A DNA stretch of 64,000 nt, taken from Leifsonia shinshuensis. GTDB taxonomy: Bacteria; Actinomycetota; Actinomycetes; Actinomycetales; Microbacteriaceae. The notes beneath the pieces were generated by a model that saw only the letters and a program-made list of their open reading frames with translations, searched no databases and was not told the origin of the DNA. This document shows, piece by piece, positions 12,696 through 64,000 of the stretch; position 1 is the first letter of the stretch, and every line of letters begins with the position of its first letter. The translations under genes and the position numbers were made by a program. The stretch lies in assembly GCF_031456835.1 (NCBI RefSeq), contig NZ_JAVDVK010000001.1, forward strand, positions 3,596,001 to 3,660,000. Direction: 5' to 3'.

Positions 12696-12827
12696 ACATT
12701 CGTGCCGAATGTGGCGAAACGACCGCGGGAGGCCCACATTCGTGCCGAATGTCGCCCCACGCCCCGCGGGACATTCGTGCCGAATGTCGCGAAAGGGGCG
12801 CGCGGAGGCGACATTCGTGCCGAATGT
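12696..12827. repeat. Array of four 17-bp palindromes between convergent genes
   Basis: Four exact copies of ACATTCGTGCCGAATGT start at 12696, 12736, 12771 and 12811, with start-to-start distances of 40, 35 and 40. Each has 7-bp perfect arms around TGC. The first and third spacers resemble each other (GGCGAAAC and CGCGAAAG near their starts, G-rich ends). The array fills the gap between the SDR stop (12672, plus strand) and the ramB stop (12836, minus strand). The same core in reverse orientation recurs at 63501-63817. It could act as a bidirectional terminator or as a binding-site array. Confidence 0.9.
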
Positions 12828-16238: not shown

Positions 16239-16281
16239 CCCGTCCCCCCGCGCCGGGACCCCACCGTCGAGCGCCCCTTCA

Positions 16282-16341
16282 TCGAGTACACGAAAAGTGC
16301 ACGCGAATCGCCCGATTCACGTGCACTTTTCGTGTACTCGA
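16282..16341. terminator. 60-nt near-perfect hairpin between convergent genes
   Basis: Arms of 29 nt (16282-16310 and 16313-16341) begin TCGAGTACACGAAAAGTGCA and pair at 28 of 29 positions (C16304/A16319 mismatch) around a 2-nt CC loop. It lies between the pckG stop and the stop of the minus-strand ABC exporter. It can serve as a bidirectional terminator but is longer and more perfect than needed; its sequence differs from the 13-bp palindrome arrays. Confidence 0.85.
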
Positions 16342-16357
16342 GGGAGGGGGGAGGGGG

Positions 16358-60088: not shown

Positions 60089-61525
60089 ATGGCGTATGAA
60101 TTCGAGCGGAAGCAGCGCATCGCGGTTCTCGGCGGCGGCCCGGGCGGCTACGAGGCGGCCCTGGCGGGCGCGCAGCTCGGCGCCGACGTGACCCTGGTGG
60201 AGCGTTCCGGGGTGGGTGGCTCCGCGGTCATCACCGACGTGGTGCCGTCCAAGAGCCTGATCGCGACCGCGGAGGCGACCAACTCGATCGGCGAGGCCAC
60301 CGACCTCGGCGTCCAGTTCTTCTCGCGGGGAGACACCGGGAAGCCGGTCCGTCCCGAGATCGCGGTCAACCTGTCGGCGGTCAACAAGCGGCTGGTCGGG
60401 CTCGCCCGGCAGCAGTCGGAGGACATGCGGGCGGAGCTCGTCCGCTCGGGCGTGCGCATCGTCAACGGGGAGGGCCGCCTCGACGGCGACGGCGCGATCA
60501 TCGTGTCCACCGCGAAGGGCGACTCCGGCACCGACTTCGACCGGGTCGAGGGCGACACGATCGTCATCGCCGTCGGCGCGAGCCCGCGCATCCTGCCGTC
60601 CGCCGTCCCGGACGGGGAGCGCATCCTCACCTGGACCCAGCTCTACGACCTGCAGTCGGTGCCGTCGCACCTCATCGTGGTCGGGTCGGGTGTCACCGGC
60701 GCGGAGTTCGCCTCGGCGTACACGGCGCTCGGCTCGAAGGTCACGCTCATCTCCTCCCGCGACCAGGTGCTGCCCGGCGAGGATGCGGACGCGGCGGCCG
60801 TGATCGAGAACGTCTTCAAGCGCAACGGCATGCAGGTGCTGTCGAAGTCCCGCGCCGAGTCGGTGGTGCGCACCGAGAACGGCGTGATCGCCACCCTCAC
60901 CGACGGACGCACCGTCGAAGGGTCCCACTGCCTCATGGCCGTCGGCTCCGTGCCCAACACATCCGGGATCGGGCTCGAGGAGGCCGGGGTCCAGGTCACG
61001 AAGTCCGGCCACATCCGGGTCAACCGCGTGGCGCGCACGTCCATCCCGAACATCTACGCCGCGGGCGACTGCTCCGACTCGCTGCCGCTCGCCTCCGTCG
61101 CCAGCATGCAGGGCCGCACCGCGGTCTTCCATGCGATGGGCGACGCGGTCAACCCGATCGAGCTCCGCAACGTGACCTCGAACATCTTCACGCAGCCGGA
61201 GATCGCCACGGTCGGGTGGAGCCAGAAGCAGATCGAGGAGGGCATCGCGCAGGGCGACGTCTACAAGCTGCCGCTCAAATCGAACCCGCGGGCCAAGATG
61301 CTGGGCATCCGCGACGGCTTCGTGAAGCTGTTCGCGCGCACCGGCTCTGGCACGGTCATCGGCGGTGTCATCGTCGCGCCGCGCGCCTCCGAGCTGATCT
61401 TCCCGCTCGCGCTCGCCGTCGAGCAGCGGCTGACCGTCGACGAGGTGGCCCGGGCGTTCACGGTGTACCCGTCGCTCTCCGGCTCCATCACCGACGCGGC
61501 ACGCGCGATGCACATCGTGCTCTGA
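60089..61525 (+). CDS. lpdA: NAD(P)H-quinone reductase, LpdA-like flavoprotein
   Basis: 478 residues from ATG at 60089 (ATG at 60080 possible). The FAD motif is IAVLGGGPGGYEAALAGAQLGA, the NAD motif LIVVGSGVTGAEFASAYTALG, the second FAD motif IYAAGDCSDSLPLASVA, and a dimerisation domain ends the chain. The redox-cysteine segment of lipoamide dehydrogenases is replaced by GVGGSAVITDVVPSKSL, with no cysteine. This matches Mycobacterium tuberculosis Rv3303c (LpdA), which reduces quinones rather than lipoamide and helps against oxidative stress. Divergent from punA; it may be followed in the same transcript by the antiporter gene 16 bp on. Confidence 0.93.
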   Translation: MAYEFERKQRIAVLGGGPGGYEAALAGAQLGADVTLVERSGVGGSAVITDVVPSKSLIATAEATNSIGEATDLGVQFFSRGDTGKPVRPEIAVNLSAVNKRLVGLARQQSEDMRAELVRSGVRIVNGEGRLDGDGAIIVSTAKGDSGTDFDRVEGDTIVIAVGASPRILPSAVPDGERILTWTQLYDLQSVPSHLIVVGSGVTGAEFASAYTALGSKVTLISSRDQVLPGEDADAAAVIENVFKRNGMQVLSKSRAESVVRTENGVIATLTDGRTVEGSHCLMAVGSVPNTSGIGLEEAGVQVTKSGHIRVNRVARTSIPNIYAAGDCSDSLPLASVASMQGRTAVFHAMGDAVNPIELRNVTSNIFTQPEIATVGWSQKQIEEGIAQGDVYKLPLKSNPRAKMLGIRDGFVKLFARTGSGTVIGGVIVAPRASELIFPLALAVEQRLTVDEVARAFTVYPSLSGSITDAARAMHIVL

Positions 61526-61541
61526 TCGGAAGGCCCGGGGG

Positions 61542-63464
61542 ATGGAGCTCGCGCTGACCGTCGGCGTCCTCGCCGTGCTGGCGATCGCGGCGGCCGGCAC
61601 GATCGGGCCAAAATTCGGGGTGGCGTCCCCGCTGATCCTGGTTGTCGCCGGCATCCTGGTCAGCCTGTTGCCGTTCGTGCCCGCGCTGGAGCTGAAGCCC
61701 GAGTGGATCATCGCGGGCGTCCTCCCACCGCTTCTCTACTCCGCGTCGGTCTCCATGCCCGCCATGAACTTCCGGCGCGAGTTCGGCGCCATCGGCGGGC
61801 TCTCGGTGCTGCTGGTCATCGTCACCTCGGTGCTGCTCGGACTGTTCTTCGCGTGGGTGATCCCCGGCCTGGGGCTCGCCTGGGGCATCGCCCTCGGCGC
61901 CATCGTGAGCCCGACCGACGCTGTCGCCACGAGCATCGTGAAGCGCGCCGGGATCTCTCCGCGCGTCGTCGCGATCCTCGAGGGCGAGAGCCTGCTCAAC
62001 GACGCGACCGCGCTGGTGCTGCTGCGTTCGGCGGTCGCGGCCGCGGCCGCATCCTTCACCCTGGGCAGCGTTACCCTGTCGTTCTTCTACTCCGTCGCCG
62101 TCGCCGTGGCCTTCGGAGTGCTCGTCGGCTGGCTCAATTTGAAGGTTCGCCAGCGGGTGAAGGATGCGACGGTCAACACGGTCATCTCGTTCACTGTCCC
62201 GTTCCTCGCCTCGCTGCCCGCGGAAGCGCTCGGCGCCTCCGGCCTCGTGGCGGCCGTCGTCGCCGGACTCGTGACGGGCAGCCGGGCGCCGCGCCTGCTC
62301 TCGCCGGAGCACCGCCTCTCGGACGCGCAGAACTGGCGGACGGTGGAGCTCATCCTCGAGGGCCTGATCTTCCTCACCATGGGGCTGGAGCTGTTCGGCA
62401 TCCTGCAGAACGTGCAGAACGACCACGCCGGCGTGCTGCCGGCGATCGGGGTTGCGGCCGGGGCACTGGTGCTGACCATCCTGGTGCGCGCCGGTTTCGT
62501 CGCGCCGCTGCTCGCGCTGCTCGCGCGGCGGCACCGGCGGGGCGAGCGGATGCGCCCGCGGCTGCAGCAGCTGCAGGAGCACCTGTCCGACCCGGAGGCG
62601 CTGCAGCGCGGGATCGCGCGGCGGGTGGCGCCGGCGGGGCCGGCGGCGCTCACGGCGGGGCCGGGGGAGGCGGATGCGCGGGCGGCGGATGCGGACGGCT
62701 CGGGCGACGGGGTGGATGCCGGCGGGGTGGATGCTGCCGGGACGGACGCCGCCGGGGCGGACGCTGCCGTGGGGGAGGCTGCCGTGGGGGACGCTGCCGT
62801 GGCGGATCAGGTGTTCGCCTACCCGCGCGCGGAGGGCCAGCGGGCGATCTCGCCCCAGCGGGCGGAACGTCGCCGGCGTCGCCTGGCCCGCCGCGGCATC
62901 CCCACCGTCGAGAACCTGACCCGCTTCGGAACGCGCCTGCGCCGGGTGCTCGCGGACATCGACTACTTCACCGGCGCGCCGCTCGGCTGGCGGGAGGGCG
63001 CGATCGTGGTGTGGGCCGGGATGCGCGGCGCTGTGACCGTCGCGGCCGCCCAGTCGCTGCCGACGGAGACGCCGGGACGCTCGGTGCTCGTGCTGATCGC
63101 GTTCCTCGTCGCGGCGGGCTCGCTCCTGCTGCAGGGCGGAACCCTCACCCTTGTGCTGCGGCTCGTGAAGCCCGCAGGGATCGACCCGCAGGCCGAACGC
63201 GACGAGCGCCGCCGCCTGATGGAGCTGCTGTTCGAGGCGGGCAAGACGGTACCGCTCCCATCCACCACCGAGCGCACCCCGGAGGTCTTCGCCGAGTACA
63301 AGGCCGCGCGGCTGGCCCAGCTGCGGGCTCAGCGCGACGCGCTGCTGGACGCGCGCGACGACGGCACGTTCAGCGCGGACGTGCTGGAGGGCGCACTCGT
63401 CAACCTCGACGCCGACGAGATCAGCATCGACCTCAAGGGCGACCCCGGCGACCCCACGGGCTGA
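61542..63464 (+). CDS. CPA1-family Na+/H+ antiporter
   Basis: 640 residues. The transport core has IIAGVLPPLLYSASVSMP, IVSPTDAVATSIVKRAG and ILEGESLLNDATALVLL with the aspartates of CPA1 exchangers, and ends VVWAGMRGAVTVAAAQSLP. It exchanges Na+ (or K+) for protons at the membrane. A hydrophilic loop of about 100 residues between late helices holds an Ala/Asp/Gly-rich imperfect repeat (DAAGTDAAGADAAVGEAAVG) followed by a basic run (RAERRRRRLARRG). A charged C-terminal tail of about 95 residues follows. GGAAGGCCCGGGGG lies ahead of the ATG. Confidence 0.93.
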   Translation: MELALTVGVLAVLAIAAAGTIGPKFGVASPLILVVAGILVSLLPFVPALELKPEWIIAGVLPPLLYSASVSMPAMNFRREFGAIGGLSVLLVIVTSVLLGLFFAWVIPGLGLAWGIALGAIVSPTDAVATSIVKRAGISPRVVAILEGESLLNDATALVLLRSAVAAAAASFTLGSVTLSFFYSVAVAVAFGVLVGWLNLKVRQRVKDATVNTVISFTVPFLASLPAEALGASGLVAAVVAGLVTGSRAPRLLSPEHRLSDAQNWRTVELILEGLIFLTMGLELFGILQNVQNDHAGVLPAIGVAAGALVLTILVRAGFVAPLLALLARRHRRGERMRPRLQQLQEHLSDPEALQRGIARRVAPAGPAALTAGPGEADARAADADGSGDGVDAGGVDAAGTDAAGADAAVGEAAVGDAAVADQVFAYPRAEGQRAISPQRAERRRRRLARRGIPTVENLTRFGTRLRRVLADIDYFTGAPLGWREGAIVVWAGMRGAVTVAAAQSLPTETPGRSVLVLIAFLVAAGSLLLQGGTLTLVLRLVKPAGIDPQAERDERRRLMELLFEAGKTVPLPSTTERTPEVFAEYKAARLAQLRAQRDALLDARDDGTFSADVLEGALVNLDADEISIDLKGDPGDPTG

Positions 63465-63500
63465 CGCCCCGCCCGCCCCGCACGCACCCGTCTGCTCACG

Positions 63501-63817
63501 ATTTGGCACAAATCGTGGCAATGCGCAGCCCATAACGACGATTCGGCACAAATCGCGGCCGACATCGAAGGCACATTCGGCACGAATGACCGGGATGCCG
63601 CGCGCAAAGCCTTCATTCGGCACGAATGGCGACCGAGCACGAAGCGCGCATTCGGCACGAATCACCGTGACGCTCGGCGCAGAGCCTTCATTTGGCACGA
63701 ATCGCGCTCGAGCGGCAGACGCACATTCGGCACGAATCGAGGGGATGCCGCACGTAAAGCGTCCATTCGGCACAAATCGCGGCAATGCGCCGCGCATAAC
63801 GACGATTTGGCACAAAT
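63501..63817. repeat. Array of nine 13-bp palindromes between convergent genes
   Basis: Nine copies of ATTYGGCACRAAT start at 63501, 63541, 63575, 63615, 63650, 63690, 63725, 63765 and 63805. Distances are 40, 34, 40, 35, 40, 35, 40 and 40. The long spacers (27 nt) resemble each other (CGTGGCAATGCGCAGCCCAT and CGCGGCAATGCGCCGCGCAT for the first and last), and the short ones (about 22 nt) form a second group. The core is the reverse complement of that at 12696-12827. It fills nearly all of the 386-bp gap between the antiporter stop and the carboxylase stop; no gene is seen there. Confidence 0.9.
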
Positions 63818-63850
63818 CGTGCGACTGCCGCGCCGAACGCGGCGGCGGCG

Positions 63851-64000
63851 TCAGACGATGTTGAGCAGCAGGTGACCGGACGAGACCGTCTCGCCGACCG
63901 ACGCGTTGATGCCGGAGACCGTGCCGTCCTTGTGGGCGGTGAGCGGCTGCTCCATCTTCATCGCCTCGAGGACCAGCACGAGGTCGCCCTTCACCACCGG
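63851..64000 (-). CDS. Acyl-CoA carboxylase biotin-carrier end (partial)
   Basis: The last 49 residues of a minus-strand protein whose start lies beyond the window. The biotinyl lysine is in VLEAMKMEQPL, followed by the second half of the biotinyl hammerhead (KDGTVSGINASVGETVSSGHLLL). In actinobacteria this domain ends the fused biotin carboxylase/carrier alpha chain of acetyl-/propionyl-CoA carboxylases; the rest cannot be seen, so other biotin enzymes remain possible. Confidence 0.92.
   Translation of the reverse strand, partial: PVVKGDLVLVLEAMKMEQPLTAHKDGTVSGINASVGETVSSGHLLLNIV

Follow-up and report, generated by a model that had tools for sequence, protein, structure and literature searches.

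Dispersed palindromic elements of Leifsonia are coupled to genes for Vsr-fold nucleases

REPs and REPINs count among the most frequent repeats of bacterial genomes, and RAYT is, to our knowledge, the sole enzyme family that has been tied to them. In the available portions of two papers (PMC3116915, PMC8049555), the REPIN/RAYT system comprises short palindromes that form inverted doublets around a less conserved spacer, that are extragenic and that occur in tandem clusters. The RAYT gene is portrayed there as near-vertical in its inheritance and as adjoining its own repeat type, and one genome can hold several repeat types with several enzymes. In PMC3116915, deep population reads had been examined for intermediates at REPINs. 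According to parts of a third paper (PMC3733652), REPs tagged with GTAG or CGTC adjoin the 3′ ends of convergent genes, while CGTC REPs reportedly have no dedicated transposase; neither 'Actinobacteria' nor 'Leifsonia' occurs in its text. MTES_1575 is presented in a portion of a further paper (PMC3710099) as a Vsr REase domain within a large fusion protein, and that portion mentions no link of MTES_1575 to palindromes. In those parts of the open-licence PMC literature that were accessible, we found no paper describing a nuclease-palindrome link.

The DNA under study here is a 64,000-nucleotide stretch from the soil bacterium Leifsonia shinshuensis (the window). At 63501–63817, on the + strand, it carries nine exact copies of the 13-mer ATTYGGCACRAAT, starting at 63501, 63541, 63575, 63615, 63650, 63690, 63725, 63765 and 63805, with successive spacings of 40, 34, 40, 35, 40, 35, 40 and 40. 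This bore out a first-pass annotation, which had reported nine regularly spaced 13-bp palindromes at distances that nearly always alternate between 40 and 35. With at most one mismatch allowed, the window contained 13 matches to the 13-mer, as compared to a mean of 0.26 and a maximum of 2 in 100 shuffles. The nine 13-mers, of the form ATTYG-nnn-CRAAT, make up five 40-bp pairs on the + strand, the last two of which share a 13-mer. Pair 1 (63501–63553) has a T-class-like spacer (cgtggcaatg...cataacgacg), and T-class elements also flank the resident nuclease gene. Pairs 2 (63575–63627), 3 (63650–63702) and 4 (63725–63777) are of the C-class (ATTCG...CGAAT), pair 3 with a mixed second 13-mer (ATTTGGCACGAAT), while pair 5 (63765–63817), which has one 13-mer in common with pair 4, is again T-class-like. 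The array is a mosaic with a T-like pair at either end and three C-class pairs in the middle. It begins 36 nt after the end of a Na+/H+ exchanger gene (PF00999; 61542–63464, + strand) and is faced by the 3′ end of a biotin carboxylase/biotinyl-carrier gene (PF02785, PF00364; 63851–63997, − strand), the gap being convergent.

A second array, absent from the first-pass annotation, was found in a convergent gap at 12698–12825, in the opposite orientation (− strand); its four copies form two C-class pairs (12698–12750 and 12773–12825). In addition, a palindrome of 76 bp from a different family, J (...CGAGTACACGAAAAGTGCACG...; 16274–16349), lies in the gap where a PEPCK gene and an ABC-transporter gene converge; palindromes of family J also bracket a further nuclease gene of the strain (G000:C1:3059088–3059987). 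An RNA family was ruled out as the identity of the nine-copy array, since an Rfam search of 61001–64000 gave no match up to an E value of 1.

Throughout the own genome of the strain (G000), 144 exact copies of ATTYGGCACRAAT were counted (86 + 58), whereas the reversed control pattern gave none (0 + 0); the motif is indeed above chance genome-wide. The spacing proved to be conserved as well, as 40-bp pairs recurred in 23 of the 28 genus genomes, with 3 to 331 pairs each, and were missing from five. By far the highest number, 331, was found in G015, where the nuclease of the A clade (see below) falls outside the common-locus group. Among the matches listed, almost all named records with such pairs were from Leifsonia, and one ATTCG pair (L101) matched in a contig labelled as a Bacteroidia MAG. 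A region of ~726 kb of the own chromosome (G000:C1:2640647–3366943) contained no exact 13-mer.

The own-genome stretches and the window together held 177 ATTYGnnnCRAAT 13-mers with any central triplet, and for 81 of these the following 13-mer was exactly 40 bp away. Other spacings depended on the array: 32–36 in the own genome, 48 in G024, and 44 or 55 in G017 (the G017 values obtained by subtraction). Because the inter-unit spacing varies across arrays while 40 bp is constant, the 40-bp distance falls inside one element and the 35-bp distance separates tandem elements. The unit is two 13-mers exactly 40 bp apart within an inverted repeat of ~61 bp, and the double palindrome of ~75 nt that had been proposed was replaced by a 53-bp core, or ~61 bp including the paired ends. 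An intact T-form element reads CACG-ATTTGTGCCAAAT-CGTGGTTATG-n7-CATAACCACG-ATTTGGCACAAAT-CGTG. Spacings of 38–46 other than 40 were met in 7 cases only, and any two of the 81 spacers differed, on average, at 14.6 of their 27 positions, which indicates that the sequence drifts while the length is kept. The constancy of the 27-nt length despite this divergence may reflect a phased array for a DNA-binding protein. T-class elements are in most cases inverted pairs centred on GGTTATG-n7-CATAACC, C-class elements are often direct and often tandem, and direct-orientation pairs exist beside inverted doublets. In some species, three palindromes lie 20 bp apart.

As judged from covariation in a fixed-length alignment of 133 isolated elements, with z-scores that ignore relatedness, the ATTYG elements pair as one long hairpin. 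Columns 4 and 50 were paired in 97% of the elements versus an expected 63%, and further covarying column pairs (10–44, 25–29, 14–40, 19–35, 8–46 and 18–36) spanned the element, beside local covariation within each 13-mer (4–10, 44–50, 0–14 and 40–54). Furthermore, two apparent ortholog pairs, recognised by their spacers rather than their flanks, differed jointly at all four arm positions (G022:C1:1340775/G060:C15:29189 and G022:C5:88338/G060:C9:11318). Column frequencies around the 13-mers of the same 133 elements revealed no GTAG or CGTC tag; the outer flanks were rich in A, C and G, and the inner ones read GTCG or CGCG.

The elements are dispersed, extragenic and biased to the 3′ ends of genes. 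With gene contexts taken from a home-made gene caller, 23 of the 46 own clusters were convergent, 18 tandem and 3 divergent, one was inside a predicted gene, and one, the nine-copy array itself, was at the window edge and convergent by a separate check; of the element-free gaps of at least 30 bp, 21/154 were convergent. The 84 clusters in other species were distributed over convergent (38), tandem (24), divergent (6) and edge (11) contexts, with 5 inside predicted genes. The suggestion of a BIME/REP-like element was therefore right in kind, these being dispersed, extragenic, 3′-end-associated and hairpin-forming doublets. LacI-type regulator genes were recurrent neighbours of the elements (L081, L084, L194, L195, L197 and L199; seven proteins, one cluster), which may reflect their abundance only.

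The gap orthologous to that of the second array was searched in 28 genomes and read in 27. Of these 27, 11 had ATTYG elements there, 7 had long hairpins of other kinds, 7 had neither and 2 had other genes. When 400 kb of G022 and its partner G060 (~94–96% identity at best-matched flanks) were compared, all six G022 sites matched at both flanks had elements in both genomes, with differences in copy number at two and in spacers at one. Transposition was not observed at these six sites, and neither a cleanly empty site nor a duplicated target turned up in the 400-kb two-genome comparison. At a seventh site, matched by its right flank only, the partner also has an element. Spacer identity was 19/27 (70%, hand count) at site 496760/503468 and 21/27 at another site. 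At G022:C3:315119/G060:C17:295451, two 13-mers stand against one, as if a 40-bp unit had been gained or lost between 13-mers. A second dispersed palindrome family, CAGCTCCTGAGTTNTTC, had 30 to 85 matches in 5 of the 28 genomes; its + and − copies are 40 or 41 bp apart and flank nuclease genes in G013 and G019 (L331, L394 and L417). Several further palindrome families emerged when 400 kb were scanned for inverted repeats in an unbiased way.

The gene linked to these palindromes encodes a putative AbiEi-like DNA-binding domain fused to a nuclease of the Vsr/homing-endonuclease fold. In the own genome, the ATTYG-linked gene lies outside the window at G000:C1:1267993–1269000, with one element on either side, the downstream one overlapping its stop codon. 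These are ATTTG elements, and the orthologous locus is bracketed by elements in other species as well. Its matches to the MTES_1575/DUF559 profiles (PF18741, PF04480) are below or near the curated cut-offs, and it has the catalytic-domain fold of Vsr and I-Bth0305I. The acidic residues E198 (113/115), D231 (111/115), E242 (114/115) and D258 (115/115) are conserved, and we infer that they are catalytic; H248 is present in only 82/115. PF18741 was detected in 28/28 genus genomes, element-free ones included, which rules out its mere presence as an explanation and leaves only the A clade plus its flanks as discriminating. The nuclease genes occupy about five conserved loci (A in 21 genomes, H/I in 20, C/D in 18, K in 16, B/J/M and others in 13) and are vertically inherited, so that gene counts are not independent. 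The A-locus ortholog of G012, a genome without pairs, has no ATTYG flanks. In 18 genomes, the antiporter gap orthologous to that of the nine-copy array contains a nuclease gene whose palindromes are of a different type; in the own genome, it contains the array and no nuclease gene. The nuclease clades are too divergent for tblastn with an A-type query, which gave no match in the antiporter gaps even though PF18741 locates nuclease genes in them. Palindromes with a GGCGTGTCG-type loop were seen a few hundred bp downstream of PF18741 proteins of ~1255 aa (L257 and L259).

The coupling between nuclease genes and palindromes is tight. Of 84 nuclease genes, 49 had an inverted repeat upstream, 30 downstream, 60 on either side and 19 on both, whereas the corresponding frequencies for 596 control genes, taken from two genomes only and unmatched in gap length, were 7.0%, 15.8%, 21.8% and 1.0%. 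In the full set of 119 nuclease genes, a palindrome (median length 58) was located upstream of 61, downstream of 50, on either side of 84 and on both sides of 27, and 35 had none at the threshold used. This set excludes the ~1255-aa PF18741 proteins, at least one gene of ~300 aa (G022:C3:287066) and L062 (the same gene as L358), and L419 stands in for L071 of the same genome. In 26 of the 27 two-sided genes, both palindromes belonged to the same family (similarity score of at least 20), and the similarity within a gene was 35.0, compared to a mean of 11.1 and a maximum of 18.0 after permutation. Among 48 downstream palindromes, 32 overlapped the stop codon.

On a tree of 115 of the 119 genes, from which the short frames L241, L262, L391 and L400 were excluded, the 21 ATTYG-flanked genes made up exactly one clade, A (SH-aLRT 99). 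All 21 members of this clade had ATTYG flanks, and no member of another clade had them after two exclusions by hand. The raw pattern placed an ATTYG 13-mer within 350 bp of 24/119 genes, the three additional ones being L262, which is truncated and outside the tree, and two that were relabelled by hand: L385, with a chance ATTCGggcCGAAT inside the hairpin of another family, and L361, with a single upstream 13-mer in another clade. Other clades carry other palindrome families of ~58 bp. With families labelled by handwritten regexes, since automatic clustering had merged families I and K, the label changed 11 times on the tree versus a mean of 53.6 and a minimum of 49 after shuffling, a count that covers 82/115 genes and omits 10 'other' and 23 palindrome-less rows. 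Dispersed pairs were present in 21/21 genomes with an A-clade gene and in 2/7 without one, namely G006 (8 pairs) and G011 (20 pairs and a truncated A-clade gene). An earlier impression that own-genome nucleases are weakly linked, with 1/5 beside an element, was dropped once the other palindrome families had been recognised.

The flanks also differ in dialect. At one locus, both sides change in step, reading ATTTGTGCC in G000, ATTTGCGCC in G013 and G019, and ATTCGTGCC in G002, G016 and G022, and the same locus has a 20-bp-spaced ATTCGTGAC in G005 and G014 and three-palindrome forms in G010, G025 and G026. Elements in the SDR gap scored 43.7 against the nuclease flanks of their own genome and 31.2 against those of others (0/20,000 permutations), where species relatedness inflates this dialect test as it does the nuclease-palindrome coupling. 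The own nuclease ranked first in 5 of 11 cases, second in 3, fourth in 2 and tenth in G000, whose C-class SDR-gap array is a poor match to its own T-class nuclease flanks (rank 10/11).

A plasmid collection contained five homologs of 29–36% identity, three in Arthrobacter and two in Tsukamurella. Together with one from Microbacterium, all six distant homologs had a palindrome on at least one side, and four of the six had the same type on both. The Tsukamurella palindrome had 20 match positions spread over 8 records, and the Arthrobacter ones had 7 in one record and 11 in two, with true copies at about half of these counts because the palindromes match both strands. At an E value of 0.01, neither was detected in any other organism of the plasmid collection. 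One phage record contained a nuclease homolog.

On either strand, the motif TTNTCCACA occurred in the 200 bp upstream or the initial 40 bases of 79/115 nuclease genes versus 4/603 control genes (from two genomes only, gap length again unmatched), and its background was 6 in 864 kb. By its likeness to the consensus TTATCCACA, it may be a DnaA box; alternatively, it could be the nuclease protein's own operator. Nine cases of an inverted TGTGGA-n11-13-TCCACA pair were noted, and the motif lies, for example, upstream of L176, L351 and L434. At the three Arthrobacter homologs, CTGTGGATAA lies at −47 to −61, and the full motif TTNTCCACA is missing at both Tsukamurella homologs and the Microbacterium gene.

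Like REPIN/RAYT, the Leifsonia system has dispersed extragenic inverted doublets with a less conserved spacer, tandem clusters, a near-vertical enzyme gene beside its own repeat type, and several repeat types with several enzymes in one genome. By analogy, it appears to work in the same manner, with a vertically kept enzyme gene that is bracketed by, and matched in dialect to, dispersed hairpin repeats. It departs from REPIN/RAYT in its enzyme, which joins an AbiEi-like half to a Vsr-fold nuclease and is no Y1/HUH transposase, in the single palindrome at either side of the gene, the downstream one so often on the stop codon, and in its elements, which combine strict 40-bp spacing with the lack of a GTAG/CGTC tag. 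They share with the tagged REPs the convergent 3′-end placement but not the tag. In contrast to Vsr and I-Bth0305I, the Leifsonia nuclease has an N-terminal AbiEi-like half and its gene is flanked by dispersed palindromes, outside introns and with no adjacent cytosine methylase in the stretches viewed. It differs from AbiEi antitoxins and Rv2827c in that the putative AbiEi-like half is fused to a nuclease, and it has the profile match in common with MTES_1575/DUF559.

We consider it probable, with some reserve, that small, non-autonomous elements akin to REPINs have clustered locally to form the array and that the cognate AbiEi-Vsr nuclease copies or converts its palindrome; the step from coupling to mobilisation is inferred. 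The nuclease would recognise its own palindrome and cause its copying or conversion within the genome, perhaps through a cut at the palindrome that is then repaired with another copy as template, a role that would parallel that of RAYT for REPINs. The upstream DnaA-box-like motif might tie nuclease expression to replication. T-class copies would represent the current dialect and C-class copies an older one, and the nine-copy array would have both dialects stacked, plus tandem expansion.

It is rather unlikely that the palindromes are host-owned structural sites, such as bidirectional terminators, 3′-end stabilisers or sites for gyrase or nucleoid proteins, which are selected at gene ends in gaps that nuclease genes happen to share. 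The convergent bias of the own clusters over element-free gaps, the covariation over the whole hairpin and the positions kept between close species though spacers change are what such sites would lead one to expect, but a terminator can do without a fixed ATTYG core and without a spacer of exactly 27 nt, pairs are missing altogether from five of the genus genomes, and the one orthologous gap read in 27 genomes varies in its content. The same-family two-sided flanks and the clade-family match would also be left unexplained. Lower still we place the idea that these are recognition sites or self-marks of an AbiEi-Vsr nuclease in defence or regulation, acting by foreign-DNA cutting or autoregulation, with a copy number that reflects function and not mobility: a self-mark has no need of a downstream position on the stop codon or of anything from 0 to 331 pairs per genome.

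MITE-like elements of another transposase, for which nuclease genes are merely common landing sites, would be small inverted-repeat elements in shared gaps with copy numbers that differ among species, as seen here. They do not predict that ATTYG flanks accompany every A-clade gene and, after the two hand exclusions, no gene of another clade, or that cognate palindromes lie beside homologs of 29–36% identity in other families, and we regard this origin as improbable. Classical REPIN/RAYT would account for the doublets, the hairpins and the extragenic 3′ bias, and the first-pass annotation had envisaged spread by a RAYT-type transposase. However, the PF01797 profile for Y1 (RAYT) transposases matched 0/28 genus genomes and 5/14 control genomes, so that RAYT was rejected as the partner enzyme, the gene in its place being that of the Vsr-fold nuclease. 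As the defining transposase and tag are both absent, the system is not a REPIN/RAYT member, and we give this identity hardly any credence.

Taken more broadly, from Leifsonia, Microbacterium, Arthrobacter and Tsukamurella, the chances seem even that the palindromes are an Actinomycetota-wide class of repeats propagated by standalone AbiEi-Vsr-type nucleases and not by HUH transposases, with several vertically kept genes per genome, each having a two-sided dialect that is homogenised by cutting and copy-repair, and with DnaA-coupled expression. If the dispersed palindromes do have a second, unrelated enzyme family, the two-component arrangement arose more than once, and the very common genes annotated as 'DUF559/very-short-patch-repair-like' would gain a role. 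The spread of palindromes without a Y1 transposase would then become testable, and the matched dialects offer ready enzyme-substrate pairs for biochemistry.
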